Positions 49,541 through 63,931 of a DNA stretch of 64,000 bases are shown here, one piece after another; position 1 is the stretch's first letter, and each line of letters begins with the position of its first letter. Source of the DNA: Blastococcus sp. VKM Ac-2987 (lineage in GTDB: Bacteria; Actinomycetota; Actinomycetes; Mycobacteriales; Geodermatophilaceae); the NCBI RefSeq assembly GCF_026967805.1, contig NZ_JAPVBG010000001.1, positions 1,488,047-1,552,046 on the forward strand. The letters are read 5' to 3'. The position numbers were made by a program, and so were the translations under genes. The notes beneath the pieces are model-generated. The model was not told where the DNA came from and made no database searches. It worked only from the letters and a program-made list of their open reading frames with translations.

Positions 49541-49560
49541 ACACTTCGAGGCCGAAGTGT
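49541..49560. promoter_or_regulatory. 20-bp palindrome before the decarboxylase-like gene
   Basis: ACACTTCGAGGCCGAAGTGT: perfect 8-bp arms around AGGC, 70 bases upstream of the sugar-nucleotide gene's ATG. A 15-of-20 match lies at 60299-60318 before the heptose operon. It is probably an operator shared by the glycan genes. Confidence 0.6.
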
Positions 49561-49630
49561 GTGCGAAGTTGATCTCCGGGTACGGGGCGGAGGATGCGCG
49601 CCACCCGCGCGCGGGTCGAGGGGGGCAGCG

Positions 49631-50620
<990 letters not shown>

Positions 50621-50737: not shown

Positions 50738-52369
50738 ATGGGCCGCCACGCCGAACGCACGACCCAGCGCCGTACGGTGCCTCCCGTCCTCCTCGCCGCA
50801 GGTCTCGCGGTGGTGCTGGTCCTCGGCGGCCTGGGCTGGTGGCTGACGGCGAGCGGTGGTTGCGAGCGCGCGACCGTCGACGTCACCGTCGCCCCGGAAC
50901 TCGGCCCGCTGACCGAGGAGCTGCTGACCGACCTGGAGTCGCCCGACGGCGAGGTGTGCGTCGACGCCCAGGTGACCGCCCAGGAGCCGCTGCAGAGCGC
51001 CGGCGCCCTCGGCGCGCTGGCCGAGGACGCGCTTCCCGACGTCTGGGTCCCCGACTCCCGCCTGTGGGCCGCCCGCGTCGCCTCCGCCGAGCTCGAGCAG
51101 GAAGGCTCGATGGCGGTGTCCCCCGTGGTCCTGGGCACCAGTCGCGCGGTGGTCGACGACCTCGGCTGGAGCGACACCCCGCCCGGCTGGAGCGAGGCCA
51201 TGGGCACCGACCGGCCGCTCGCGGTGCCCGACCTCGCCTCCAGCGCCGAGGCCCTCTCCGTGCTCGCCGCCGTGCGGACCGCGCTGGGCGGCGACGCCGA
51301 CGCGGACAACGCCATCGTGCAGGCGGTGCTGGCCGCGGCGCGCAGCACGGCCCTCTCGCCCGGCGAGGCCCTGGACGCCGGCCGCGCGGGCAGCGCGGAG
51401 GCCCCGCTGGTGCCGGTCAGCGAGCAGGAGGTCTACGCGCTCAACCAGGACGCACAGGACGCCGAGCTCGTCGCCGTCTACCCCGCCGAGGGGTCGCCGG
51501 TGCTCGACTACCCGGTGCTGCGGGTCGGCGCCGCCACGGGGGCGCAGCAGCAGGCCGTGGACGTCGTGGTCGGCAGGCTGCTCTCCGACGAGGCGCAGAC
51601 CGCCGTCCGCGACGCCGGCTTCCGCGGGCCCGAGGGCGCCGCTCCGACCGGTGCCGGCCCGGAGACCGGGATCGTGGCGGCGAGCCCCGAGGTGGTGCCG
51701 CTGGAGGCCGAGCAGGTGCAGGCGCTGCTGACCCGGCTGAGCAGCCTCGCCGCGCCGTCCCGGATCCTGTCGGTCTTCGACGTCTCGACGTCGATGGAGG
51801 CGCCGGTCGGCGACGGCACCCGCGCCACGCTGGCCCGCGACGCCGCCAAGGCGGCGCTCTCGCTGGTCCCGGACAACTACGCGCTCGGCTCGTGGGTGTT
51901 CGCCTACCAGCTCGAGGGCGACCGGGACTGGGAGCAGATGGTGCCCACCCGCGAGCTGGACGACGTGGTGGACGGGCGCGTGCAGCGCGAGATCCTCGAT
52001 GAGCAGCTCGACACGCTCCCCGACCGGCTCACGCCGGGCGGGACCGGGCTGTACGACACCACGCTGGCCGCGGTCCGTGCGGCTCGGGAGGACTACGACC
52101 CGACCGCCGTCAACAGCGTCCTGATCGTCACCGACGGCGCCAACGAGGACGACGACGCGGGCCTCGGCCTGGAGGAGCTGCTGGGCACCCTCTCCGCCGA
52201 GGCGGACCCGGACCGGCCGGTCAAGGTCATCGGCGTCGCCCTCGGCCCGGACGCCGACGTGAGCGTCCTCGAGGAGATCGCCGACGTGACCGGCGGGGCG
52301 GCGTACTCCGCCGTCGACGAGACCGACCTGCAGACCGTCCTGTTCGACGCCCTCCGCCAGCGGGGGTAG
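50738..52369 (+). CDS. Substrate-binding-like and VWA-domain membrane protein
   Basis: A 543-residue protein. An N-terminal transmembrane anchor or uncleaved signal (about 14-38) is followed by a binding-protein-like domain (about 45-320). That domain has the Pro/Trp pattern PDVWVPDSRLWAARV seen in actinobacterial extracellular solute-binding/VWA proteins. The C-terminal von Willebrand A domain (about 340-543) has an intact metal site: Asp348, Ser350 and Ser352 (DVSTS), with a later Thr and the VTDGANEDD loop. Such proteins are extracellular and their roles are poorly known; adhesion or envelope assembly is likely. It sits between sugar-nucleotide and glycan genes. Confidence 0.85.
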   Translation: MGRHAERTTQRRTVPPVLLAAGLAVVLVLGGLGWWLTASGGCERATVDVTVAPELGPLTEELLTDLESPDGEVCVDAQVTAQEPLQSAGALGALAEDALPDVWVPDSRLWAARVASAELEQEGSMAVSPVVLGTSRAVVDDLGWSDTPPGWSEAMGTDRPLAVPDLASSAEALSVLAAVRTALGGDADADNAIVQAVLAAARSTALSPGEALDAGRAGSAEAPLVPVSEQEVYALNQDAQDAELVAVYPAEGSPVLDYPVLRVGAATGAQQQAVDVVVGRLLSDEAQTAVRDAGFRGPEGAAPTGAGPETGIVAASPEVVPLEAEQVQALLTRLSSLAAPSRILSVFDVSTSMEAPVGDGTRATLARDAAKAALSLVPDNYALGSWVFAYQLEGDRDWEQMVPTRELDDVVDGRVQREILDEQLDTLPDRLTPGGTGLYDTTLAAVRAAREDYDPTAVNSVLIVTDGANEDDDAGLGLEELLGTLSAEADPDRPVKVIGVALGPDADVSVLEEIADVTGGAAYSAVDETDLQTVLFDALRQRG

Positions 52370-52393: not shown

Positions 52394-52457
52394 CAGGCAT
52401 AGGAAGCTATGCCTGTGTTCCGGCGGCCCGAACCGCAGGCATAGCTTCCTATGCCTG
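52394..52457. repeat. Pair of mirror-image 22-bp palindromes, convergent genes
   Basis: Two hairpins, arms CAGGCATAG/CTATGCCTG at 52394-52402/52407-52415 and at 52436-52444/52449-52457. The second 22-mer is the exact reverse complement of the first, so the whole 64-bp block can also fold as one long hairpin. It lies between the VWA gene and the convergent glycosyltransferase gene, and the second copy supplies the latter's TAG stop codon. A bidirectional terminator or a small mobile palindrome are the options. Confidence 0.8.
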
Positions 52458-53408
52458 GGATGGGCAGGCTCCGTCGACGAGTCCGTCCAGGGCGTCCAGC
52501 ACCTCGTCGACGGTGATCTCGGCCAGCGCGGGGTCCAGCTCGGTGCCCCAGGGGTCGCCGGTGCCGTCGCCGTGCCAGAGGACGCGGTGCAGCGGTCCGT
52601 GCTCCCCGGGCCGGAGCGGCGGCCCCCACAGCGCCGGCGACACCGGGCCGAACAGCACCACCGAGGGCCGCCGGTAGGCGGTGGCCAGGTGCGCGACGCC
52701 CGTGTCGCCGCAGACGACCAGGCGGGCCGCGGCGACCACCGCCGCGAGCTCCGTGGACGTCGTCCGGCCGGCCAGCACCGCGGACTCCCCCAGCCCGGCG
52801 GCCGCGGCCACCGCGCGGGCCAGCCCCACCTCGGCCGGGCCGCCGGTGATCCGCACGTCGTGACCGGCGTCGGCGAGGTGGCGGGCGATGGCGGCGAACC
52901 GGTCCGGCGGCCACCGCCGTCCGGGGAAGGCCGCGCCCGGGTGGACGACGGCGGCGCCGCGCACCGGCGGCGGCACGGCCGGGACGGCGAGGTCGAGGGC
53001 GTCGGGGTCGGCGACCACCCCCAGCCCCTCGGCGACCAGCCGGCACCAGCGCCGGACCTCGTGCTCGTCGGGGTACCAGGTGGGGCCGGGGTAGCCGGGG
53101 CTGCCGAAGGTGAGCAGCCGGCCCGGCCGCAGGTCCGCCACGACCACGTGCGAGGCCGGGCCCTTGCCGTGCAGGTCGACGGCGAGCTCCGGCGGCGGGC
53201 CGGCCCAGTCCAGCGGCTCCAGCTCGCGGGCGGGCAGCACCTCGTCGACGGCGTCGACCAGCCGGGCGAGCGGCTCCAGCGGGGTCGTCGTCGCCAGGAC
53301 CAGCCGGTGACCGGGGACGGCGGCCCGCACCGCGCGGATGGCGGGCACGCCGGTCAGCAGGTCCCCCAGGCCGAGCGGGCGCAGGACGACCGCGGTCGGC
53401 CGCTCCAT
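52449..53408 (-). CDS. Glycosyltransferase family 9 protein (heptosyltransferase-like)
   Basis: A 319-residue GT9-type enzyme of the ADP-heptose:LPS heptosyltransferase family. N-terminal block: VVLRPLGLGDLLTGVPAIRAVRAAVPGHRLVLAT. C-terminal block: VVHPGAAFPGRRWPPDRFAAIA, then GDTGVAHLATAYRRPSVVLFGPVSP, which binds the nucleotide. It is expected to transfer a heptose (or another NDP-sugar) onto a glycan or lipid in the cytoplasm. The last codons lie in a palindrome. Its ATG overlaps the HldE stop by one base (TGATG). Last gene of the seven-gene operon. Confidence 0.9.
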   Translation of the reverse strand: MERPTAVVLRPLGLGDLLTGVPAIRAVRAAVPGHRLVLATTTPLEPLARLVDAVDEVLPARELEPLDWAGPPPELAVDLHGKGPASHVVVADLRPGRLLTFGSPGYPGPTWYPDEHEVRRWCRLVAEGLGVVADPDALDLAVPAVPPPVRGAAVVHPGAAFPGRRWPPDRFAAIARHLADAGHDVRITGGPAEVGLARAVAAAAGLGESAVLAGRTTSTELAAVVAAARLVVCGDTGVAHLATAYRRPSVVLFGPVSPALWGPPLRPGEHGPLHRVLWHGDGTGDPWGTELDPALAEITVDEVLDALDGLVDGACPSQA

Positions 53409-54805
53409 CACACCCGCGAGCGCTCGACCAGGGCCGTGGTCGAGTGGCCGTCGAGGTAGGGCAGGACGACGGCCTGACCACCCCAGCCGCGCAGCACCTC
53501 GGCCTCGGGCAGGTCCGCCCCGGCGTAGTCGCCGCCCTTGGCCCACACGTCCGGCCGCAGCCGGTCGAGCACCTGCGCCGGGGTGTCCTCCCCGAAGACG
53601 ACGACGGCGTCCACGAACTCCAGCGCCTCCAGCACCCGCGCCCGGTCCGCCGCGGTCACCAGCGGCCGCGAGGGCCCCTTGAGACGGCGCACCGAGTCGT
53701 CGGAGTTGATGCACACCACCAGGCAGTCGCCGAGGCCACGGGCGGCCCGCAGCGTCGCGACGTGCCCCGGGTGCAGCAGGTCGAAGCACCCGCCGGTGGC
53801 GACGACGGTCCCCCCGGCCGCACGGACCCGCGCGATCACCGACTCGGCACCGGGCTCCGCCACCACGTTCGGCTCGGCCCCGTCCGCGGCGTCCCAGGCC
53901 GAGGCCCCGCCGCGCGCGACGAACGCGGAGGCGAAGGCGACCGCGGCGGCCACCGCCTCGCCGGTGACCGCGCCGTCGGCGAGCGCCAGGGCCGCCGCGG
54001 CCGCGAAGGAGTCACCGGCCCCGCACGGGTCGCCCCCGGTGACCGCCGCCGCGGGCACCACCATGGGCGCACCGGAGCCGTAGGAGAGCAGCGCGCCGCG
54101 GGCACCGAGGGTCACCGCGACCGCGCCCACGCCCCAGTGCCGGATGAGGGCCTCGGCGCGGGCGCCGACGGCGGCCAGGCCCGCGCCGTCGCCGGCCACG
54201 CCGGCACCGGCCGCCACGCGGGCGGCCTCCGCGCCGTTGGGGGTGACCAGCCGGGCGTTCGGCACGGGGTCGGCGCCGCGCGGGTGCGGGTCCCAGACCA
54301 CGGGGCCGCGGGCGGCGGCCAGCGCGTCGCGGACCGCCGGGTCGGCCGTCGTCCCCCGCCCGTAGTCGGCCACCAGCACGGCGGCGGCGTCCCGGATGGC
54401 GGCGGCCGCCTCGGCCGGCAGCTCGCCGAGCACCGCCACCGGCGCGCCGCTGTCCAGCCGGGCCACCGAGTGGTCGCCCACGCGCACCCGCTGCTTCACG
54501 GCGGTGCCGCCGCCGGCCGGGATGGCGATCAGCCGGACGCGGCCGTCGAGCAGCGCCCGCAGCCGGTCGGCCCCCTCGTCGGAGTCCAGCGGCGCGACCA
54601 GCACCACCTCCCGGGCGGAGGCGGCGGCCGCGATGACGGCGGCGAGCGCCGCGCCGCCCGGGCGCTCCCGCCGCTCGATGTCCTCGACCACCGGCACGGG
54701 TGCGTCGGGGGTCAGCCGCGAGGCGGTGCCGACGAGGTCGACGTCGAGCAGCGCGTCGCCCACGACGACCAGCGGCCGCGCCGCCGGCGGGGTCCGGCGC
54801 GTCAC
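53408..54805 (-). CDS. hldE: Bifunctional heptose-7-P kinase / heptose-1-P adenylyltransferase
   Basis: A 465-residue HldE-type protein. The N-terminal PfkB-type sugar kinase (about 1-320) has VVGDALLDVDLVG at the start and the catalytic GGDPCGAGDSF motif. The C-terminal nucleotidyltransferase (about 330-465) has TGGCFDLLHPGHVATL, with the HxGH pair His345/His348, and the INSDDSVRRLKGPSRPL block. It phosphorylates D-glycero-D-manno-heptose 7-phosphate at C1 and later adds AMP to make ADP-heptose. The GTG start overlaps the GmhA stop (GTGA). The three other activities except the C6 epimerase are in the same operon. Confidence 0.92.
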   Translation of the reverse strand: MTRRTPPAARPLVVVGDALLDVDLVGTASRLTPDAPVPVVEDIERRERPGGAALAAVIAAAASAREVVLVAPLDSDEGADRLRALLDGRVRLIAIPAGGGTAVKQRVRVGDHSVARLDSGAPVAVLGELPAEAAAAIRDAAAVLVADYGRGTTADPAVRDALAAARGPVVWDPHPRGADPVPNARLVTPNGAEAARVAAGAGVAGDGAGLAAVGARAEALIRHWGVGAVAVTLGARGALLSYGSGAPMVVPAAAVTGGDPCGAGDSFAAAAALALADGAVTGEAVAAAVAFASAFVARGGASAWDAADGAEPNVVAEPGAESVIARVRAAGGTVVATGGCFDLLHPGHVATLRAARGLGDCLVVCINSDDSVRRLKGPSRPLVTAADRARVLEALEFVDAVVVFGEDTPAQVLDRLRPDVWAKGGDYAGADLPEAEVLRGWGGQAVVLPYLDGHSTTALVERSRV

Positions 54806-55485
54806 TGCGCGGCCCCCAGCGTCGGGCCGGAGGGCACCCGCGCGGGCTCGGCGAGCACCGCGGCGTCGAACGCCGCGCAGACCAGGTGCAGGGCGACCAG
54901 GTGGCACTCCTGCACGGTCGCCGTCCAGGGCGAGTCGATGCAGACCGCCTCGTCGGCGGAGGCGGCCAGCGGGTTGGGCGCCGGCCCGGTGATCGCCAGC
55001 ACGGTGATCCCGCACTCCCGGGCGCGACGGGCCGCGGCGACGGCGTTGGGCGAGCGGCCCGACGTCGACAGCAGGATCAGCACGTCGCCGGCGCGGCCGT
55101 GCGCCTCCACCTGGCGGGCGAACAGCTCGTCGGCCGGGTAGTCGTTGGCGATGGCGGTCAGCGACGAGGTCTCCGCGGTGAGGCAGATGGCGGAGAACGG
55201 CGGCCGATCGGCGCGGTAGCGGCCCACCAGCTCGGCGGTGAGGTGCTGGGCCTGCGCCGCGCTGCCGCCGTTGCCCGCGGCCAGCAGCCGTCCGCGGGAC
55301 TCCCCGCAGAGCACGTCGGCGAGCAGCCGGCCCCAGCGGTCGAGCACGGGCACCTGGGACTCCACCGACCGCAGCGCGGCGGTCAGCGAGGAGACGTGGT
55401 CGGCGCCGGTCAGGTGGGTGCAGGTGTCGGGGGACACCACCTCGGCGGCGGTGTTCGGGGCCGCACTCATCGGCATGCCGGTCAT
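54802..55485 (-). CDS. gmhA: Phosphoheptose isomerase-like SIS protein
   Basis: A 227-residue SIS-domain protein of the GmhA/DiaA group. It should convert sedoheptulose 7-phosphate to D-glycero-D-manno-heptose 7-phosphate, the first heptose step. Family blocks are RLLAAGNGGSAAQAQHLTAELVGRY (about residues 67-91) and LILLSTSGRSPNAVAAA. The C-terminal CHLVALHLVCAAFDAAV helix carries the conserved His. The N-terminus has about 30 extra residues. The ATG overlaps the stop of the upstream glycosyltransferase (ATGA). The heptose context makes the GmhA role more likely than DiaA. Confidence 0.88.
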   Translation of the reverse strand: MTGMPMSAAPNTAAEVVSPDTCTHLTGADHVSSLTAALRSVESQVPVLDRWGRLLADVLCGESRGRLLAAGNGGSAAQAQHLTAELVGRYRADRPPFSAICLTAETSSLTAIANDYPADELFARQVEAHGRAGDVLILLSTSGRSPNAVAAARRARECGITVLAITGPAPNPLAASADEAVCIDSPWTATVQECHLVALHLVCAAFDAAVLAEPARVPSGPTLGAAQ

Positions 55486-56726
55486 CGGGCGACCTCCACG
55501 GGACGACGGCGGGCGAGGACCTGCCGGTAGACGGTTTCGGTGTCGGCGACGACGCGCGCCCAGCGGTAGCGGGCGCGGGCCCGCTGCACGCCGGCGGCGC
55601 CGTAGGCGGCGCGCCGGGCGTCGTCGGAGAGCAGCGCGGCGAGCACCTCGCCGAGCCGCTCGGGATCACGCGGCGGCACGAGGTCCCCGGTGACGCCGTC
55701 GGCGACGGTGTCCTGGAGCCCGCCGACGGCTGTGGCGACCACGGGCCGCCCGCAGGCCATGGCCTCGAGCGGGGTGATGCCGAACGGCTCGTACCAGGGG
55801 ACGGCGAGGACCACGTCGGCCGAGCGCACCCAGGCGGGCACGTCGGCGCGGGCCACCGACCCGGCGAAGACCAGCCGGTCGGCCACGCCCGCCTCGGCGG
55901 CGATGCCGCGCAGCCGGCGCACCTCGGGGTCGGCGTCGATCGCGTCCGGGGCCGGGCCGCCGACGACCACCAGCTCGGCGCCGGGCACGGCGCGCAGCGC
56001 CCGGACGGCGTCGTCCTGGCCCTTGCGCTCGACCAGCCGGCCGAGGACCAGCAGCCGCTTGCGGTCCCCCCGCGGGGCGACCGGGCCGCGCGGGGTGAAC
56101 ACCGAGGTGTCCACGCCGCACGGCACGACCGAGACACGGTCGCTGGGCAGGCCCAGCCGGCGCAGCTCGAACACCTCGTCGGAGCAGGTGGCCACCACGT
56201 GACTGACGTCCCGGCACAGGCCGCGCTCGAGGTCGACCCGTTCGGCCGGGGAGGGATCGGCGTCGCCCTGGTGGCGGCGCTTGACCGAGCCGAGGGCGTG
56301 GAAGGTCTGCAGCACCGGGACGGGTGCGAGCAGGCTGGCCGACGCCTCGACCGACGCCAGGCCGCTCATCCAGAAGTGCGCGTGCACGACGTCGGGCGCC
56401 TGCGCGGCCCAGCCGTGCCGGAGCACCCGGGCGAAGGCCGGCATGTGCTCCAGCAGCTCGTCCTTGGGCAGCGGCTCGGCCGGGCCGGCGGTGACGTGGG
56501 CGACGTCGTAGCCGTCCTCGGTGGTCACCCGCTCGGGCAGGGCGGCGTCGTCGCGGCGGGTGTGCACGGTGACCTCGTGCCCGCGGGCGGCGAGCCCCGC
56601 GGCCAGGGCGGCGACGTGCACGTTCTGCCCGCCGGCGTCGACACCGCCGATCGCGGCGAGCGGGCTGGCGTGCTCGCTGACCAGGTCGATCCTGAGCCGG
56701 TACGTGCCCAGCTGGTCGGTCCTCAC
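55482..56726 (-). CDS. Glycosyltransferase family 4 protein
   Basis: A 414-residue GT-B fold enzyme. The N-terminal Gly-rich acceptor loop is AAIGGVDAGGQNVHVAALAAGLAARGHEVTVHTRRDD (about residues 22-58). The retaining GT4 nucleotide-sugar block is AVPWYEPFGITPLEAMACGRPVVATAVGGLQDTV (E-x7-E, near 325-350). The FWMSGLASVEA and LGRLVERKGQDDAVRAL parts are as in sucrose-synthase-like and mannosyl-type transferases. The sugar and acceptor are unknown. The GTG overlaps the previous gene's stop. Confidence 0.92.
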   Translation of the reverse strand: MRTDQLGTYRLRIDLVSEHASPLAAIGGVDAGGQNVHVAALAAGLAARGHEVTVHTRRDDAALPERVTTEDGYDVAHVTAGPAEPLPKDELLEHMPAFARVLRHGWAAQAPDVVHAHFWMSGLASVEASASLLAPVPVLQTFHALGSVKRRHQGDADPSPAERVDLERGLCRDVSHVVATCSDEVFELRRLGLPSDRVSVVPCGVDTSVFTPRGPVAPRGDRKRLLVLGRLVERKGQDDAVRALRAVPGAELVVVGGPAPDAIDADPEVRRLRGIAAEAGVADRLVFAGSVARADVPAWVRSADVVLAVPWYEPFGITPLEAMACGRPVVATAVGGLQDTVADGVTGDLVPPRDPERLGEVLAALLSDDARRAAYGAAGVQRARARYRWARVVADTETVYRQVLARRRPVEVAR

Positions 56727-57703
56727 CGGGTCACCTCCTCGAGCAAGCGGTCCCAGTCGCCCAGGAAGCGGTCCAGCCCGTAGCGCTCCAGGGCCGCCGC
56801 GCGGGCGGCCTTGCCGGCCAGCCGGGCGGCGTCCTCGTCGTGCACGAACTCCCGGACGGCGGCCCACAGGCGCTCGGGCCGGGTGGAGAGCACCCCGGCC
56901 TCGGCGGGCACCGCCTCCACGGCCTCGGTGGTGGCCAGGCCGACGACGGGCAGCCCCAGGTGCATGGCCTCCAGCAGCGCCAGGCCCAGCGACGTCCAGC
57001 GCACCGGGTGCACGTAGACGCGGCGGCGGGCCAGCTCGGTGTGCATGGCGGCCTGCGGCGGGTCGTCGTGCAGAGCGACCCGGGCCGGGTCCAGGCCGTA
57101 CTTCTCGTGCAGGCCGGCCAGGCCCATGCCGAAGACGTCGACCGGGGCCGCGGCGGCGAGGCCGGGCAGCAGGTCCGCGCCGACGGTGCGGCCCCGGCGC
57201 ACCGGCTCGTTGGTGACGACGGCGGCCCGGGCCAGCTCACCGGTGTACCGCTCCCCCGGGTCGACGATCCCGTGCTCGATCACCGTCGTCGGCGCCCGGC
57301 CGTTGTCGTAGAACAGCCTGTTGAAGAAGGTGACGTGCGCGATCGGGATGTCCGCCTGGTCGGCCATCGGGTGCCGGGTGTGCGGGACCGGTCCGTCACC
57401 CGGCTCCAGGCCGGGGGCGTTGTGCTCCAGGAAGACGGCGGGCAGGTCCCGCCCGGGCTCGCGACCGAGCCACTCGTGCACCAGCTCCAGGTCGCGGCGG
57501 CGCTGCAGCACGACGACGTCGACGTGCTCGTCGCGCAGCTGGGCGGGCGTCACCTCGCGGGCCGACGCCGGCCATTCCCAGGTGCGGGCGCGGCCGAGGC
57601 CGTCAGGTCCCCGATCGGCCACGACCGGCAGCAGGTACTGGTGCCGGCCCTGGACGAACGCCGTCGTCCACGAGCCGTGCACGTGCCAGAGCAGGATGTT
57701 CAC
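56723..57703 (-). CDS. Glycosyltransferase (GT-B, group 1-like)
   Basis: A 326-residue enzyme whose C-terminal half matches glycosyltransferase group 1 (HPVRWTSLGLALLEAMHLGLPVVGLATTEAVEAVP, near 240-275). The N-terminal half is peculiar to actinobacterial members (NILLWHVHGSWTTAFVQGRHQYLLPV). It is shorter than usual GT4 proteins. The GTG start overlaps the stop of the upstream gene (57700-57702). The long upstream reading of the same frame is antisense-like and discarded. The substrate is unknown. Confidence 0.87.
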   Translation of the reverse strand: MNILLWHVHGSWTTAFVQGRHQYLLPVVADRGPDGLGRARTWEWPASAREVTPAQLRDEHVDVVVLQRRRDLELVHEWLGREPGRDLPAVFLEHNAPGLEPGDGPVPHTRHPMADQADIPIAHVTFFNRLFYDNGRAPTTVIEHGIVDPGERYTGELARAAVVTNEPVRRGRTVGADLLPGLAAAAPVDVFGMGLAGLHEKYGLDPARVALHDDPPQAAMHTELARRRVYVHPVRWTSLGLALLEAMHLGLPVVGLATTEAVEAVPAEAGVLSTRPERLWAAVREFVHDEDAARLAGKAARAAALERYGLDRFLGDWDRLLEEVTR

Positions 57704-58779
57704 GCACTCACCTGGATCTCCGCCGCCTTCCCGGCTGCGGCGTCGGGACGGACGACGGCCGTGGCCTCGACCGTGCGGAGCTGCCCCACGGCGGCGACCA
57801 CGTCCTGCGCGGTCACCGAGGTCAGGCAGGGGTGGCCGGGCACGGGGCACTCGCGGGCCCGGGTGCCCCGGCAGGCCGCGGTCTGGTCGCCCAGGAGCAC
57901 CGTGGGCACGCCGTAGGGCGCCCAGCGCCCGGCGGGCACGACCGGCGCGAACAGCGAGACCACCGGGGTGCCGACGGCGGCGGCCAGGTGCGCGGGCCCG
58001 GTGTTGCCGACGACGACGGCGGCCGCACCGTCGAGCAGCGCGGCCATCTCGGCCAGGGAGGTCGCCCCGCCCAGGTCGACGCCCCGCGTACCCGCGACGA
58101 GGGCGGTGAGCTCGCGCTCGCCCGGCCCGCCGGTGACCAGCACCCGGTGGCCGGCGTCGGCCAGCGCCTCGACCGCCTCGGCGCACCGCTGCGCCGGCCA
58201 GGCGCGGGCCGGGACCGAGGCCCCGGGGTGCAGGACGACGTAGCCGGGCTCCGCGGCGGCCGGGTGCGCGACCGGGGGCAGGGGTCGCCGCACCACGAGC
58301 CGGCCGTCGTCGCCGGCCGGCAGCTCGAACCCCGCGGCCCGGGCCAGCGAGAGGGCCCGCTCGGGCTCGGGGAGGTCGTCGTCGACGCGGTGCCGGACGT
58401 CGAGCAGCGTGCCGGGGTAGTCCACGCTGATCGCCGAGATGCGGGGCACGCCCGCCGTGCGCAGCACCAGGGCCAGGGGCAGGGGCGACTGGTGGAACGA
58501 CGTGGAGAGCACCGCCTCGTCGGGCGCCAGCGCCCGGACGCGGTCGGTGAGCGCGGCGAGGTCGGCGGCGTCGACCGCCGGTGGGTCGCCGAGGATCCAG
58601 GGGCAGGACCAGGTCCAGACCTCGTCGACGCCGGGCAGCAGCTCGGCGGCCGCGGCGCCCGCCGGGCCGGCCAGGAACACGACCCGGTCGGCGGTCGCGG
58701 CGACGGCGCGCACGAGCGGGCCCTGCAGGAGGACGTCGCCGGCGTTGTCGAGGCGCGCGACCAGGACGGTGCGCGTCAC
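57700..58779 (-). CDS. Glycosyltransferase family 9 protein, second copy
   Basis: A 359-residue heptosyltransferase-like GT9 enzyme: VLVARLDNAGDVLLQGPLVRAVAATADRVVFLAGP at the N-terminus, VVLHPGASVPARAWPAQRCAEAVEAL in the middle and GNTGPAHLAAAVGTPVVSLFAPVVP for the nucleotide pocket. The region after it (TAACRGTRARECPVPGHPCL) has three Cys, as in some family members. It is only distantly like the GT9 at the end of the operon. Start: the GTG at 58779 overlaps the fusion gene's stop (GTGA); a GTG one codon earlier is equally possible. Confidence 0.9.
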   Translation of the reverse strand: MTRTVLVARLDNAGDVLLQGPLVRAVAATADRVVFLAGPAGAAAAELLPGVDEVWTWSCPWILGDPPAVDAADLAALTDRVRALAPDEAVLSTSFHQSPLPLALVLRTAGVPRISAISVDYPGTLLDVRHRVDDDLPEPERALSLARAAGFELPAGDDGRLVVRRPLPPVAHPAAAEPGYVVLHPGASVPARAWPAQRCAEAVEALADAGHRVLVTGGPGERELTALVAGTRGVDLGGATSLAEMAALLDGAAAVVVGNTGPAHLAAAVGTPVVSLFAPVVPAGRWAPYGVPTVLLGDQTAACRGTRARECPVPGHPCLTSVTAQDVVAAVGQLRTVEATAVVRPDAAAGKAAEIQVSA

Positions 58780-60266
58780 CACGTCCCACCCAGCACGTCG
58801 TCCACCGCGCCGGTGAGGGTGGTCACGACGTGCGGGGCGGCGGCGACCTCCTCGCGGCGGGTCACCGGCGTCGGCACCATGATCCCGGTCGCCCCGGCGG
58901 CGGCCGCGGCCTCGACGTCGGCGCCGATGTCCCCGATGACGACGACGCGGGCCGGGTCGACGTCCAGCTCGGCGCAGGCGGTCTTGACCATGCCGGGCGC
59001 GGGCTTGCGGCAGCTGCAGCCGTCGTCGGGGCCGTGCGGGCACACCTGCACCGTCTCGAACGGCCCCAGGAGCTCGGCCAGCCGCGCCATGCAGGCGTCG
59101 ACCTGCTCGCGGGTGATCAGCCCCCGGGCCACCCCGGACTGGTTGCTGACCACGCCCACCCGCACGCCGCGGGCGCGCAGCCGGTCGAGGGCCTCCTTCG
59201 CGCCGTCGACCGGGCGGACCCACGCCGGGTCGCCGTTGTAGGGGTAGTCGTGCACCAGGGTGCCGTCGCGGTCGAAGAGGACCAGGTCCGGCAGGCCCTT
59301 CCAGCGGCGGACACCCACGTGCTGCACCACCCCGCGCAGCCAGTGCCAGGTGGCCAGCGGCGGGATGAGCGCACTGGTCGCGAGCATCGTGCCGACCTCC
59401 GCGCGGTCGCGCGGCCCGGGGGCGATGCGCCGCCACGCGAACTCGGCGGTGCCGGCCGCCCAGGCGGCCGCGGTCGCCGCCGCCGATCGCGGACGGCCCG
59501 CCACGGCGAGACCGACCGCGGCCAGGCCGGCGGCGGTGACGGCGAGGTGCTGCGGACGCCGGCCGAGAGCGGCGTCGGCGCGCTCGCGCCAGCCGGGCCC
59601 GTGCAGCCGGCGCATCAGGACGTCGTCGGCGTTGCCGGCCTGCACCCGGGCGCTGACCCAGCGGTCGGTGGGCCGGACCGGGTGGGTGATCCACCGCTCG
59701 CCGCGCACCAGCCGGGCGCCGGTGTCCATGATCCGCAGCGCGAGGTCGGAGTCCTCGCGGAAGGCGCGGGGGAAGCGCTCGTCGAAGCCGCCGACCGCGG
59801 CCAGGGCGCTGCGGCGGTAGGCCAGGTCGGCGGTGATCCAGCTGGAGGTGGCCAGCCCGGCGGTGCCGCGCTCCCAGTCGGTGGGCCGCCGGTGCCCGGG
59901 GAGCGGGACGCGCACCCGGCCCTGGCTGCCGGCGACGTCGGCGGGCAGCCCGGCGAGGTCGGCGTCCAGCCGCTCGTACCAGTCCGGGTCGGTCACGACG
60001 TCGTCGTCGAGGAAGGCGATCCACTCGGTGCGGGCGGTGCGCCAGCCCAGGTTGCGGGCGCGGGCGGGCCCGCCGCCCCCGGTGCGCACGACGCGGACCG
60101 GCGGCAGACCGGGGCGGTCGGGGTGCAGCGGCTCGCCGGTGGGCCGGTCGTCGACGACGACCAGCTCCGCGGGCCGCGGGCCGGGCGCAGCGGCGAGCGC
60201 GTCGAGCAGGACGTCGAGCGAGGGACGCCCGATCGTCGGCACGACGACGGTGCACTGCGCGAGCAT
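58776..60266 (-). CDS. Fusion of family 2 glycosyltransferase and GmhB-type phosphatase
   Basis: A 496-residue protein. Residues 1-230 are a GT2 domain: VVVPTIGRPSLDVLL at the start and the metal-binding AFLDDDVVTDPDWYERL. A hydrophobic region (about 240-310) may touch the membrane. Residues 325-490 are a HAD phosphatase of the histidinol-phosphate/GmhB type, with motif I at FDRDGTL (Asp332, Asp334), SNQSGVARG and the zinc loop CPHGPDDGCSCRKP. GmhB removes the 7-phosphate of heptose 1,7-bisphosphate. The fusion therefore supplies the missing heptose step. First gene of the operon; ATG start. Confidence 0.9.
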   Translation of the reverse strand: MLAQCTVVVPTIGRPSLDVLLDALAAAPGPRPAELVVVDDRPTGEPLHPDRPGLPPVRVVRTGGGGPARARNLGWRTARTEWIAFLDDDVVTDPDWYERLDADLAGLPADVAGSQGRVRVPLPGHRRPTDWERGTAGLATSSWITADLAYRRSALAAVGGFDERFPRAFREDSDLALRIMDTGARLVRGERWITHPVRPTDRWVSARVQAGNADDVLMRRLHGPGWRERADAALGRRPQHLAVTAAGLAAVGLAVAGRPRSAAATAAAWAAGTAEFAWRRIAPGPRDRAEVGTMLATSALIPPLATWHWLRGVVQHVGVRRWKGLPDLVLFDRDGTLVHDYPYNGDPAWVRPVDGAKEALDRLRARGVRVGVVSNQSGVARGLITREQVDACMARLAELLGPFETVQVCPHGPDDGCSCRKPAPGMVKTACAELDVDPARVVVIGDIGADVEAAAAAGATGIMVPTPVTRREEVAAAPHVVTTLTGAVDDVLGGTW

Positions 60267-60426: not shown

Positions 60427-61104
60427 TCAGCGGCCGGAGGGGACCAGGACGCCGACCTCGTCGGCGAACCCGAGCGGGGCGGCGGTGCGCTGCTGCAGCT
60501 CCTCGCGGGACAGCCCGGCGACCATCTCGCGCACGACGAAGCCCGCGGGGCCCACGTCGATGACGGCGAGCTCGGTGTAGACGCGGTGCACGACGGCGGC
60601 GGCGGTCAGCGGGTAGCTGCACTCCTGGAGGAGCTTGGGCCGGCCGTCGGGCGTGGTGTGCATCATCAGCACCAGCACCCGCTTGGCGCCGACGGCGAGG
60701 TCCATGGCGCCGCCGACGGCCGGGGGCAGGTGGGCGTCGTCGGTGGCCCAGTTGGCGAGGTCGCCCCGCTCGGACACCTGGAAGGCGCCCAGGACCGTGA
60801 CGTCGATGTGGCCGCCGCGCATCATCATGAACGAGTCGGTGTGGTGGAAGTAGCAGCCGCCGGTGGCCAGGGTGACCGGTTGCTTGCCGGCGTTGATCAG
60901 CTCCCAGTCCTCCTCGCCGGGCGCCGGCGCGGGACCGAACCCGAGGATGCCGTTCTCGCTGTGGAAGACGATCTCCTTGCCGTCGGAGACGACGTCGCCG
61001 ACGAGGGTGGGCATGCCGATCCCCAGGTTCACGTAGGAACCGTCGGGGATGTCCTGGGCCACCCGGGCGGCCATGTCGGCGTGCGACAGCGGGGCGACGG
61101 TCAT
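60427..61104 (-). CDS. 3-oxoacid CoA-transferase, subunit B
   Basis: Beta subunit (225 residues) of a class I CoA-transferase of the ScoB/PcaJ type, which moves CoA from succinyl-CoA to a 3-oxoacid such as acetoacetate or 3-oxoadipate. The catalytic glutamate is Glu50 in HSENG. The VNLGIGMPTL and GAMDLAVGAKRVLVLMMH blocks are family-typical. The ATG overlaps the subunit A stop (ATGA). No aromatic-degradation genes are nearby, so the physiological substrate is open. Confidence 0.93.
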   Translation of the reverse strand: MTVAPLSHADMAARVAQDIPDGSYVNLGIGMPTLVGDVVSDGKEIVFHSENGILGFGPAPAPGEEDWELINAGKQPVTLATGGCYFHHTDSFMMMRGGHIDVTVLGAFQVSERGDLANWATDDAHLPPAVGGAMDLAVGAKRVLVLMMHTTPDGRPKLLQECSYPLTAAAVVHRVYTELAVIDVGPAGFVVREMVAGLSREELQQRTAAPLGFADEVGVLVPSGR

Positions 61105-61766
61105 CCCGCCACCTCCACGACCCGGTCGACGAAGATGCCCGGGGTCACGACGGCCTCGGGGTCCAGGTCGCCCAGCTCCACGAACTCCCGCACCTGGACG
61201 ACGCTGAGCGTGGCAGCGGTGGCCATGGTGGGGCCGAAGTTCCGCGCCGCCTTGTTGTAGACGAGGTTCCCCCAGCGGTCCGCGCGCTCGGCCTTCACCA
61301 GCGCGACGTCCCCCTGGAGGGGTTCCTCGAAGACGTGCCGCCGTCCGGCGATCACCCGGATCTCCTTGCCTCGGGAGAGCAGCGAGTCGGCGCCGGCCGG
61401 GGTGAAGAACCCGCCCAGGCCGGCTCCGGCCGCCCGCATCCGTTCGCTGAGCGTGCCCTGCGGCACCAGCTCCAGCTCGATGTTCCCCGCCCGGTAGAAC
61501 TCCTCGAACCAGATCGAGCCGGCCGAGCGCGGGTACGAGCAGATGATCTTCCGCACCCGCCCCTCCCGGATCAGCGCGGCGACGTCGGTCTCCCCCGCGC
61601 CGGCGTTGTTGGTCACGATCGTCAGGTCCCGGGCGCCCTGCTCCAGCAGCGCGTGCACCAGCTCCACCGGCACACCGGCGGCGCCGAAGCCGCCGACGAG
61701 GACGATGGCGCCGTCCGCGACCCCCTCGACCGCGTCGGCCAGCGACGCCACCCGCTTGTCGATCAC
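61101..61766 (-). CDS. 3-oxoacid CoA-transferase, subunit A
   Basis: Alpha subunit (221 residues) of the ScoA/PcaI type. The CoA-binding GGFGAAGVPVELVHALLEQG motif lies near residues 24-43, then TIVTNNAGAGETDVAALIREGRVRKIICSYPRS and the GNLVYNKAARNFGPTMATAA block. The GTG at 61766 gives the conserved start VIDKRVASLADAV; a longer frame upstream is proline-rich and not credible. Cotranscribed with subunit B. Confidence 0.92.
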   Translation of the reverse strand: MIDKRVASLADAVEGVADGAIVLVGGFGAAGVPVELVHALLEQGARDLTIVTNNAGAGETDVAALIREGRVRKIICSYPRSAGSIWFEEFYRAGNIELELVPQGTLSERMRAAGAGLGGFFTPAGADSLLSRGKEIRVIAGRRHVFEEPLQGDVALVKAERADRWGNLVYNKAARNFGPTMATAATLSVVQVREFVELGDLDPEAVVTPGIFVDRVVEVAG

Positions 61767-61839
61767 CGCTGCCGCCCCGGGGTCCGCCGCACCCTCGCCC
61801 GCGCGTCCGGGAGCCCTCGCCGGGAACGGGATCCGCCGG

Positions 61840-63477
61840 TCAGGATCGATCCCTCCCCACGCCGCTGTCCGACTGGGCCGAAGCCTCGTCGGTCGCGGTG
61901 CCGTCGGTGTTCTCCGCACCGGGCGTGCCCTCGGGCTCGGCGGTGGTCCCGGTCGCCGCGAGGTCCTCCTCGCCCGGCGTGGCCGGGCGGCTGCGCTGCC
62001 GCCTGCGGCGGATCCCCGCCACCGTGCTGATGATGATGACCAGCGCCATCAGGGCGAAGAGGGTCCCCGACATGGGACGGGTGAAGAAGATCGAGAACTC
62101 CCCGCCGGAGGTCAGCATCGCGCGGCGGAAGTTGGTCTCGAGGATCGAACCGAGCACGAAGGCGAGCACCAGCGGGCCCGGCTCGAACCCGGTCTTCTTC
62201 ATCAGCCAGCCGACGATGCCGAAGATCAGCACGACCCACATGTCGAACGGGTCGTTGTTGACCGAGAAGACGCCGGCCATCGTGACCAGCAGCGCGAAGG
62301 CGGCGAGGATGCCCGCCCGCACCCGCAGCAGCTGCACGAAGAACCCGACGAGCGGGATGTTCAGCGCCAGCAGCATGAGGTTGCCGATGTACATCGAGGC
62401 GATGACGCCCCAGAAGATCTCGGGCTCCTGGGAGATCAGCTGCGGGCCCGGCGTGATGCCCTGGACCAGCAGCGCGCCGAAGATCAGCGCGAGGACCACG
62501 TTCGCCGGGATGCCGAGGGTCAGCAGCGGGATGAACGCCGACGTGGAGGAGGCGTTGTTCGCCGTCTCCGGCCCGGCGACGCCCTCGATGGCGCCCTTGC
62601 CGAACCGGGTCGGGTCCTTGGCGACCCGCTTCTCCGTGGCGTAGGAGGCCAGCGAGGAGATGACCCCGCCACCACCGGGCAGGACGCCGATGAAGAAGCC
62701 CATCACCGAGCCGCGCGCGATGGGCCACCCCGAGGCGCGGAAGTCCGCCTTGGTCGGCCAGATGTTCTTGATCTTGCTCTTGACCGCCTGCGCCTTCTCG
62801 GTCTGCTCGACGTTGTAGAGGATCTCGCCGACGCCGAACAGGCCCATGGCCACCGCGACGAAGTCCAGCCCGTCGAACAGCGAGATCTGGCCGAAGGTGA
62901 AGCGGGTGGTCCCGGTGATGAGGTCCTGACCCATGGTGGCCAGCAGCAGGCCGAGCGCGGCCATGCAGAGGCTCTTCACCGGGTGGCGGGTGCCCAGGTA
63001 GGTGACCAGCAGGATGCCGAGGGCGGTGAGCGCGACGTACTCGGGCGCGCCGAACTCGACGGCGAGGTCGGCCAGCGGCGGGGCCAGCAGGGTCAGCCCG
63101 ATCACCGAGACCGTGCCGCCGATCCAGGACCCGATCGCGGCGATGCCCAGGGCCGGGCCGGCCCGGCCCTGCTTGGCCATCTGGTAGCCGTCGAAGGTGG
63201 TGACGACCGACGCGGCCTCGCCGGGCAGCTGCAGCAGCACCGAGGTGATCGTGCCGCCGTACATCGACCCGTAGTAGATGCCGGCCAGCAGGATGACCGC
63301 GGTGACGGGCTCGATCTCGTAGGTCAGCGGCAGCAGCAGCGCGATGGTCGCCGTCGGCCCGAGGCCCGGCAGCACGCCGATGACCGTGCCGATGAGCACG
63401 CCGAGGAAGACGTAGAGCAGGTTGGTCGGGTCGAGGGCGACCGAGAACCCCGTACCGATTCCTTCGAGGATGCCCAT
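61840..63477 (-). CDS. Tripartite tricarboxylate transporter, TctA subunit
   Basis: Large membrane subunit (545 residues, about 11-12 helices) of a TTT family importer driven by the ion gradient. The signature IGVLPGLGPTATIALLLPLTY is at residues 33-53, followed by YYGSMYGGTITSVLLQLPGEAASVVTTFDG and a second GVLPGGGGVISSLASYATEKR block near 265. The hydrophilic tail is rich in Glu/Thr/Gly. It takes up citrate or another carboxylate with TctB and an external TctC protein, whose gene should lie beyond the window. Confidence 0.93.
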   Translation of the reverse strand: MGILEGIGTGFSVALDPTNLLYVFLGVLIGTVIGVLPGLGPTATIALLLPLTYEIEPVTAVILLAGIYYGSMYGGTITSVLLQLPGEAASVVTTFDGYQMAKQGRAGPALGIAAIGSWIGGTVSVIGLTLLAPPLADLAVEFGAPEYVALTALGILLVTYLGTRHPVKSLCMAALGLLLATMGQDLITGTTRFTFGQISLFDGLDFVAVAMGLFGVGEILYNVEQTEKAQAVKSKIKNIWPTKADFRASGWPIARGSVMGFFIGVLPGGGGVISSLASYATEKRVAKDPTRFGKGAIEGVAGPETANNASSTSAFIPLLTLGIPANVVLALIFGALLVQGITPGPQLISQEPEIFWGVIASMYIGNLMLLALNIPLVGFFVQLLRVRAGILAAFALLVTMAGVFSVNNDPFDMWVVLIFGIVGWLMKKTGFEPGPLVLAFVLGSILETNFRRAMLTSGGEFSIFFTRPMSGTLFALMALVIIISTVAGIRRRRQRSRPATPGEEDLAATGTTAEPEGTPGAENTDGTATDEASAQSDSGVGRDRS

Positions 63478-63478
63478 G

Positions 63479-63931
63479 TCAGCGCCCCGTTCCCGCGAAG
63501 AGGATGCCGTCGGGGAAGGGCACGGCCAGTGCCACCTCGAACAGCAGGTAGAACAGCAGCGCCCCGCCGATCGCCAGCGGGACGGCCAGGCGCCACGGCT
63601 CCTTGGCGAACAGCCTGAGCCAGAACAGCAGCATGAGCACGGCCGGGATGACGAAGCCGATGGCCTCGAACAGCACGATGAACACCGCGAGGCTCAGCAG
63701 ACCACCCGCGATGCGCAGGGCGTTCCGGTTCCACGCCTCGTAGTCGTCGGGTTCGTCGATGAACAGCAGCAGCAGGGCGGTCGCGGTGAGCACCAGCGAC
63801 ACGATGAAGGGCCACAGGCCCGGCCCCGGGGCGCTCAGCTCCCCGACGCCCAGGCTCCAGGACCCCCACAGGGCGGCCGCCCCGAGGAGCAGCAGGACCA
63901 GCGGGGCTATCCGGTGCAACTGCTTGGACAT
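63479..63931 (-). CDS. Tripartite tricarboxylate transporter, TctB subunit
   Basis: Small membrane subunit of 150 residues with four hydrophobic segments (about 10-30, 36-58, 72-100 and 110-140) and the typical GPGLWPFIVSLVLTATALLLL start block. The gene ends one base before the TctA start. The ATG has a GGAG-like sequence ahead of it. Family assignment rests on size, layout and the TctA neighbour. Confidence 0.88.
   Translation of the reverse strand: MSKQLHRIAPLVLLLLGAAALWGSWSLGVGELSAPGPGLWPFIVSLVLTATALLLLFIDEPDDYEAWNRNALRIAGGLLSLAVFIVLFEAIGFVIPAVLMLLFWLRLFAKEPWRLAVPLAIGGALLFYLLFEVALAVPFPDGILFAGTGR

Follow-up and report, generated by a model that had tools for sequence, protein, structure and literature searches.

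The window analyzed here is a 64,000-nucleotide stretch of the genome of Blastococcus sp. VKM Ac-2987 (G000:C1:1488047-1552046; genome of 4.61 Mb in 12 contigs, 99.7% complete). It contains seven minus-strand open reading frames (ORFs) at 52449-60266, neighbors overlapping by 1 to 7 bases, which are predicted to encode enzymes of heptose activation and several glycosyltransferases. A first-pass annotation of the window, made from its letters, had described here an overlapping seven-gene operon with GmhA, HldE, a GmhB-type phosphatase, two GT9 proteins, two other transferases, and a GT2 domain, a description that is borne out by the ORFs, the protein families, and the gene order of related loci. 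A codon-usage gene caller, trained on the operon and five neighbors and hence not independent, returned the same seven genes, with GT9b three bases longer. The operon is named below by its apparent equivalence to the cwg ("cell wall glycan") genes of Streptomyces, and the list includes a nearby gene on the other strand.

58776..60266 (-): GT2 glycosyltransferase-GmhB-type HAD phosphatase fusion, 496 amino acids (aa), putative CwgC + CwgD equivalent (PF00535, PF13242, PRK08942, PDB 3l8h/4pnh)
57700..58782 (-): GT9a, heptosyltransferase-like, putative CwgE equivalent (PF01075; PDB 3tov, WaaF 1psw, WaaC 2gt1)
56723..57703 (-): GTx, GT4-like glycosyltransferase, putative CwgF equivalent (PF00534; AlphaFold model; GT4 profile matches)
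55482..56726 (-): GT4 glycosyltransferase, putative CwgG equivalent (PDB 6kih, 3c48; TIGR03449)
54802..55485 (-): GmhA, predicted sedoheptulose-7-phosphate isomerase, putative CwgH equivalent (family score; PDB 5i01)
53408..54805 (-): HldE, predicted heptose-7-phosphate kinase/heptose-1-phosphate nucleotidyltransferase, putative CwgI equivalent (TIGR02199; PDB 5x9q, 4e84)
52449..53408 (-): GT9b, heptosyltransferase-like, putative CwgJ equivalent (PF01075; WaaF 1psw)
49559..50620 (+): UDP-glucuronate decarboxylase-like SDR, putative CwgA equivalent, predicted UDP-xylose synthase (PDB 2b69)

Heptose-activation enzymes and glycosyltransferases

The first-pass annotation read the operon as the complete route to ADP-D-glycero-D-manno-heptose, and a GmhA-HldE-GmhB route to ADP-heptose is indeed supported, because all three enzymes are predicted and their key motifs are intact; active-site substitutions in GmhA and HldE, which it had named as contrary evidence, are not seen at these motifs in alignments with solved enzymes. 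GmhA aligns with phosphoheptose isomerases (PDB 5i01, 133 bits) over GNGGSAA, AQHLTAE (AQHxxAE), and QExHLVxxH (QExHxxxxH). The nucleotidyltransferase domain of HldE exceeds its NCBIfam cut-off (TIGR02199, 183.4 versus 181.5 bits), and the whole protein matches PRK11316 over both domains with 263.4 bits (cut-off 521). Aligned with PDB 5x9q and the heptose kinase 4e84, it retains PxAPVPVV of the substrate loop as well as GAGD, HxGH, and KGGDY. In the fusion protein, Pfam recognizes the GT2 half (PF00535, 60.9 bits) and the HAD half (PF13242, 60 bits), the latter sharing the motif FDRDGT and CPHGPDDGCSCRKP, a cysteine/histidine stretch, with GmhB-type structures (PDB 3l8h and the heptose bisphosphatase 4pnh). 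The functional roles of the HldE, GmhA, and GmhB motifs, and of the GT9 motifs described below, are presumed from our general knowledge of these families. These features support ADP-D,D-heptose as the likely donor.

Overlap had suggested a GmhA-HldE fusion in many loci, of which a frame check leaves three among the 80 related loci compared below. The reported tridomain nucleoside diphosphate-heptose (NDP-heptose) synthetases of actinobacteria (said to be described by Tang in 2022) resemble these three loci, which have GmhA and HldE in a single frame, and combine the same isomerase, kinase, and nucleotidyltransferase activities, whereas the isomerase of the window has a gene of its own, which overlaps that of HldE. 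Within the family, one genus (g174; G250, G283, G287, and G297) gives separate, weaker matches for the two parts of HldE, kinase and transferase (e.g. 319.5 and 241.2 bits), which suggests a diverged or split enzyme; the remaining genomes of this genus gave no strong HldE match.

According to passages of PMC11461863, which discusses NDP-heptose enzymes across kingdoms, the STTR5 motif is a mark of nucleotide promiscuity. In an alignment of 19 HldE sequences (A2), the window and three further Geodermatophilaceae have His as the fifth residue of this motif, where the remaining 15 sequences have Arg; its first position holds Tyr in 16 sequences and Phe in three. The His possibly predicts a changed nucleotide preference, which does not decide between ADP and CDP or UDP.

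Both GT9 proteins carry the features of that family, i.e. PF01075 (97.1 bits in GT9b and 96.1 in GT9a, over the Pfam cut-off of 22), an N-terminal GD, and a C-terminal (D/N)TGxxH. GT9a gives profile matches to PDB 3tov, WaaF 1psw, and WaaC 2gt1, and GT9b matches WaaF 1psw with 57 bits and has the motif DTGVAH. All 80 loci have the GD motif of GT9a in the stretch that matches it (76 as pattern matches, four on reading the sequence), although the stretch counted in L055 is probably GT9b. These are the only two GT9 genes in the genome. Two other transferases are GT4-like. GTx is a weak GT4 match (PF00534, 36.7 bits, cut-off 26.4), its AlphaFold model is confident, with a predicted local distance difference test score (pLDDT) of 89.9 and a predicted template modeling score (pTM) of 0.86, and its C-terminal half matches GT4 structures in a profile search of PDB sequences. 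For GT4, the best structures are PDB 6kih (Tll1590, 214 bits) and 3c48 (167 bits), which we take to be a sucrose-phosphate synthase and MshA, respectively, and its score against TIGR03449 is 216 bits, under the cut-off of 462.5.

Synteny and the Streptomyces cwg operon

We compared 80 loci selected by HldE, 64 of which are close (L011-L070, L072, L074, L076, and L084; HldE 78-92% identical) and 16 distant. One of the latter, L071, belongs to the Geodermatophilaceae, with an HldE 66% identical. HldE places Blastococcus and Geodermatophilus (mostly 82-92% identical) closest among the named relatives. The seven genes are present in the same order and on the same strand in 71 of the 80 loci, so this arrangement is not due to chance; the other nine are two short contigs and seven rearranged loci. 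This synteny is found in 62/64 close loci (the other two being the short contigs) and in L071, and it reaches Streptomyces, Cellulomonas, and Pseudokineococcus.

As this pathway is familiar chiefly from Gram-negative lipopolysaccharide (LPS), one might see in these genes a relic of LPS synthesis, brought in by transfer or contamination and devoid of a role. This idea has a negligible probability and is effectively refuted by synteny across the family, from close loci to L071, at the HldE identities given above. Moreover, the operon lies on a 1.8-Mb contig, and the genome has no match for LpxC, in keeping with the first-pass presumption of an actinobacterium without LPS.

The kind of operon is already known. 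Hong 2002 is said to be the founding paper on cwg, and the S. coelicolor operon reportedly responds to wall-targeting antibiotics. As described in passages of PMC6767563 and PMC5839063, the cwg operon of S. coelicolor comprises 12 genes (SCO6179-6190, cwgA-L), is induced by vancomycin, and depends partly on sigma-E; the printed labels include a putative dehydratase for cwgD, a putative phosphoheptose isomerase for cwgH, and a putative bifunctional synthase/transferase for cwgI. The cwgD label would fit a HisB-like HAD protein. Since one paper calls cwgH a phosphoheptose isomerase, the link of cwg to heptose is implied in print, at least in the passages concerned. The operon is also mentioned, without its product, in parts of PMC13011467 and PMC3902916, and no structure of the product is given in the portions of the cwg literature consulted. 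A search that left most subscription literature outside found no open-access paper combining cwg, heptose, and Streptomyces.

Three Streptomyces loci (L080, L081, and L089) each contain 12 adjacent genes on one strand, arranged as follows: decarboxylase, carbamoyltransferase, GT2, HAD, GT9, GTx, GT4, GmhA, HldE, GT9, GT2, GT2. Their identities come from tblastn, plus family assignment for the carbamoyltransferase, the HAD protein, and the last two GT2 genes. The run is followed by an opposite-strand gene in L080 and L089, and in L081 by another same-strand gene 150 bases on. By gene content, order, and number, the window operon fits a Geodermatophilaceae form of cwg: it has putative equivalents of cwgC to cwgJ in the same order, and the genome holds a cwgA equivalent near the operon and a cwgB-like gene elsewhere. 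There are also differences. In the window, cwgC and cwgD are fused, the operon has seven genes and not all 12, cwgA is on the other strand, and cwgB is unlinked. cwgK is absent at the window locus, where no further GT2 gene is called, and it has no match in any of the 64 close loci.

Three other features flank or resemble this locus. Between the decarboxylase gene and GT9b, a plus-strand gene (50738-52369) encodes a protein whose N terminus is a predicted membrane segment and which has a solute-binding-like PF13531 domain and sub-threshold VWA matches; relatives are found near the operon in 57/64 close and 0/16 distant loci. Immediately upstream of the operon (60427-63931, minus strand) lie a CoA-transferase pair and a TctA-type tricarboxylate transporter, which are unlikely to be part of cwg, because they are matched in 11/80 loci, all Blastococcus. 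L115 (G193:C1:6198000-6217900) is a truncated cwg locus, in which the equivalents of cwgA, cwgB, and the GT2 gene cwgC are left, and searches of that genome returned no strong HldE, GTx, or GT9 match.

Associated genes, distribution in the phylum, and HldD

The boundaries first proposed, 52449..60266, hold for the seven-gene operon, but the predicted system is larger, including the decarboxylase gene at 49559-50620 as the putative CwgA equivalent and an unlinked gene for a CwgB-like carbamoyltransferase. The decarboxylase matches UDP-glucuronate decarboxylase 1 (2b69) with 330 bits (1.4e-97). Its gene, whose start codon is uncertain (49559 or 49631), lies on the opposite strand, about 1.8 kb beyond the operon's 3' end, and a relative occurs within 10 kb of the operon in 53/64 close and 9/16 distant loci, some of which end early. 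A second copy, 71% identical, is on another contig (C6:707464-708408). The carbamoyltransferase (PF02543 + PF16861; best NCBIfam match NodU, far under its cut-off) is encoded on contig C5, apart from the other cwg genes, and is 70% identical over 542 aa to a Streptomyces protein. It stands beside the operon in 12/16 distant loci, including L071.

Some clusters carry an additional short-chain dehydrogenase (SDR2), accompanied by an aldehyde dehydrogenase of one family in 10/14 loci (L075, L077, L082, L087, L088, L090, and L116-L119), as opposed to none of the six distant loci without SDR2; the query came from three of the ten, L119 has a weak SDR2 match (112 bits), and the sequence of some loci stops early. 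Among the close loci, 4/64 have weak matches only (146-179 bits), at the locus edge. This pair may oxidize a sugar of the product.

To place these genes in the phylum, we used 246 sampled genomes. In the searches for HldE, GTx, CwgB, decarboxylase, and HldD, scoring covered the top 5 to 9 candidates of each genome, which may have lowered the counts. HldE is found in 35 genomes (E-value of 1e-20 or lower, partial and single-domain matches included), GT9 (1e-12) in 35, and both together in 33, with a Fisher p of 3.6e-36 that overstates independence, as the genomes are related. GTx exceeds 300 bits in 27 genomes, 26 with HldE and 23 with a CwgB of 745 bits or more. CwgB at this level occurs in 25 genomes, and the two without strong GTx are G193 and G206. 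Both thresholds were set after seeing the score gaps (306 to 128 bits for GTx; 746 to 406 bits for CwgB). By E-value alone, the GTx model matches in 58 genomes (1e-10) and CwgB in 45 (1e-40). Decarboxylase matches are commoner (145 genomes), so this enzyme is not confined to cwg. In one family (f5), seven large genomes have no HldE, with a best score of 65.7 bits when all candidates were scored versus 679 and 683 in two Streptomyces. This rescan excludes a search failure as the cause of the zero matches, and cwg is therefore patchy, far from universal.

Within the family of the window, on the other hand, HldE (E 1e-20) is found in 65/76 genomes, 57 of them with full-length matches above 600 bits. 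This prevalence, and synteny across several genera and orders, make it very improbable that the operon is a secondary-metabolite cluster like those for septacidin or hygromycin B, two known uses of ADP-heptose in actinobacteria. The operon also has no antibiotic-type tailoring, resistance, or export gene and contains five transferase units, presumably more than those pathways. The likeness would be that ADP-heptose is made in an LPS-free actinobacterium, as Streptomyces does for both compounds according to parts of PMC10221265; the difference is that the window route comes with several glycosyltransferases and is conserved within the family.

We carried out the genome-wide search for HldD that the first-pass annotation had called for after seeing none in the window. 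It returned ten TIGR02197 matches, none above the cut-off (best 113.7 versus 274.6 bits). Four of the ten were identified: the top two are the UDP-glucose 4-epimerase GalE, whose family cut-off of 262.3 bits they exceed with 380 and 318, and two others are the window decarboxylase and its second copy. At E 1e-60, HldD is found in 0/246 genomes, whereas E. coli and Caulobacter were positive in the same control panel. Because no HldD exceeds the threshold in these genomes, the D,D-heptose is probably used directly, without epimerization. The window system thus resembles the LPS inner-core pathway (GmhA, HldE, GmhB, HldD, WaaC, and WaaF) in the first three steps and the GT9 family. It differs in that neither HldD above cut-off nor the lipid A enzyme LpxC is found in the genome, in its three non-GT9 transferase units, and in the associated carbamoyltransferase and UDP-xylose enzyme.

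The predicted product and its alternatives

We consider, with fair confidence, that this Geodermatophilaceae cwg operon directs the cytoplasmic assembly of an envelope glycan containing D,D-heptose and probably xylose, possibly carbamoylated. From the gene content, we infer the following scheme. GmhA would convert sedoheptulose 7-phosphate to heptose 7-phosphate, which the HldE kinase domain would phosphorylate to heptose 1,7-bisphosphate. The GmhB domain would remove the 7-phosphate, and the HldE transferase domain would then form ADP-D-glycero-D-manno-heptose. This D,D form would be the donor, as no HldD was seen, and the two GT9 enzymes would add the heptose. UDP-xylose would come from CwgA, and GT4, GTx, and GT2 could add xylose and/or other units, with carbamoylation by CwgB, encoded elsewhere, as a possibility. 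Assembly would be cytoplasmic, because all seven proteins of the operon appear to be soluble or peripheral, on an acceptor encoded outside the operon, and export would use unlinked genes.

Several observations weigh against this proposal. Three of the heptose-enzyme domains belong to the right families but are under their cut-offs: the HldE kinase domain (121.7 versus 345 bits), GmhA (147.2 versus 209.45 bits), and the GmhB domain (PRK08942, 119 bits, cut-off 178). The equation with cwg was made via three Streptomyces loci other than that of S. coelicolor itself. CwgB is at the locus in 0/64 close loci, and 4/27 genomes with strong GTx have no high-scoring CwgB. The operon contains no transport, priming, or ligase gene. 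No sigma-E-type promoter was found upstream of it in the window, and one was found in 1/55 related upstream regions (3.5% in shuffles), in a weak scan whose pattern also missed the cwgA-adjacent site in 2/3 Streptomyces loci. Finally, heptose is not listed among the whole-cell sugars of Blastococcus and Geodermatophilus in the portions seen of PMC9686282 and PMC5742155, and xylose is listed in some strains only. These sources give ribose, glucose, mannose, galactose, and arabinose for Blastococcus, with rhamnose in one strain and xylose in one, from thin-layer chromatography, and report an unidentified sugar in Klenkia marina. Even if, as we assume, the Blastococcus tests were run without a heptose standard, they are real evidence against abundant wall heptose.

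The sugar lists, in the parts reported, also suit the view that the enzymes act on another sugar phosphate and make no heptose, as do the breadth of the SIS, PfkB, and HAD families and the fact that one heptose-enzyme domain alone exceeds an equivalog-level cut-off. We regard this view as improbable: all steps of one route are encoded together, two by neighboring genes and one in the fusion at the other end of the operon, the motifs align with those of solved heptose enzymes, and GT9 co-occurs with HldE in 33/35 genomes.

A more serious competitor, though still unlikely, keeps the heptose route but leads to something other than a wall glycan, i.e. a heptosylated glycolipid (e.g. on phosphatidylinositol), a glycoprotein, or a soluble cytoplasmic oligosaccharide. 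The operon has no flippase, polymerase, ligase, or membrane protein, none of the seven proteins has a strong transmembrane segment (19-residue hydropathy scan, maximum 1.92), and GT4, nearest to sucrose-phosphate synthase and MshA as we take them to be, also matches PimA- and PimB-type structures. According to passages of PMC9686282 and PMC5742155, B. aurantiacus has glycophosphatidylinositol and unidentified glycolipids, and K. marina has glycophosphatidylinositol. Similarity of GT4 does not fix the acceptor, however, and the partial control of the S. coelicolor operon by the envelope-stress factor sigma-E, as printed in the passages on cwg, speaks for the envelope.

An envelope glycan therefore remains our preferred reading, as it was of the first-pass annotation, which had called the product undescribed. 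The envelope destination is likely and "undescribed" may hold for the product; the kind of operon, however, was known as cwg by its gene content and order, and ADP-heptose synthesis in actinobacteria is also in print. What the present analysis adds is the larger system, the co-occurrence of HldE and GT9 across 246 genomes, and the lack of any HldD above threshold in them. It also makes a concrete prediction, namely a D,D-heptose and xylose glycan, possibly carbamoylated. More tentatively, and with rather less confidence than for Geodermatophilaceae, cwg may be, in many actinobacteria from this family to Streptomyces and Thermoleophilia, the locus for an uncharacterized envelope glycoconjugate of unepimerized D-glycero-D-manno-heptose, xylose, and carbamoyl groups, perhaps with oxidized heptose in clusters with the extra SDR and aldehyde dehydrogenase.

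These findings also indicate that GT9 travels in this phylum with HldE and without HldD, so that heptose genes are no marker of LPS. If the proposal is true, Gram-positive bacteria with cwg would be a source of ADP-D,D-heptose. As NDP-heptoses reportedly act as agonists of innate immunity (in passages of PMC11461863), such Gram-positive sources would be of wider interest.

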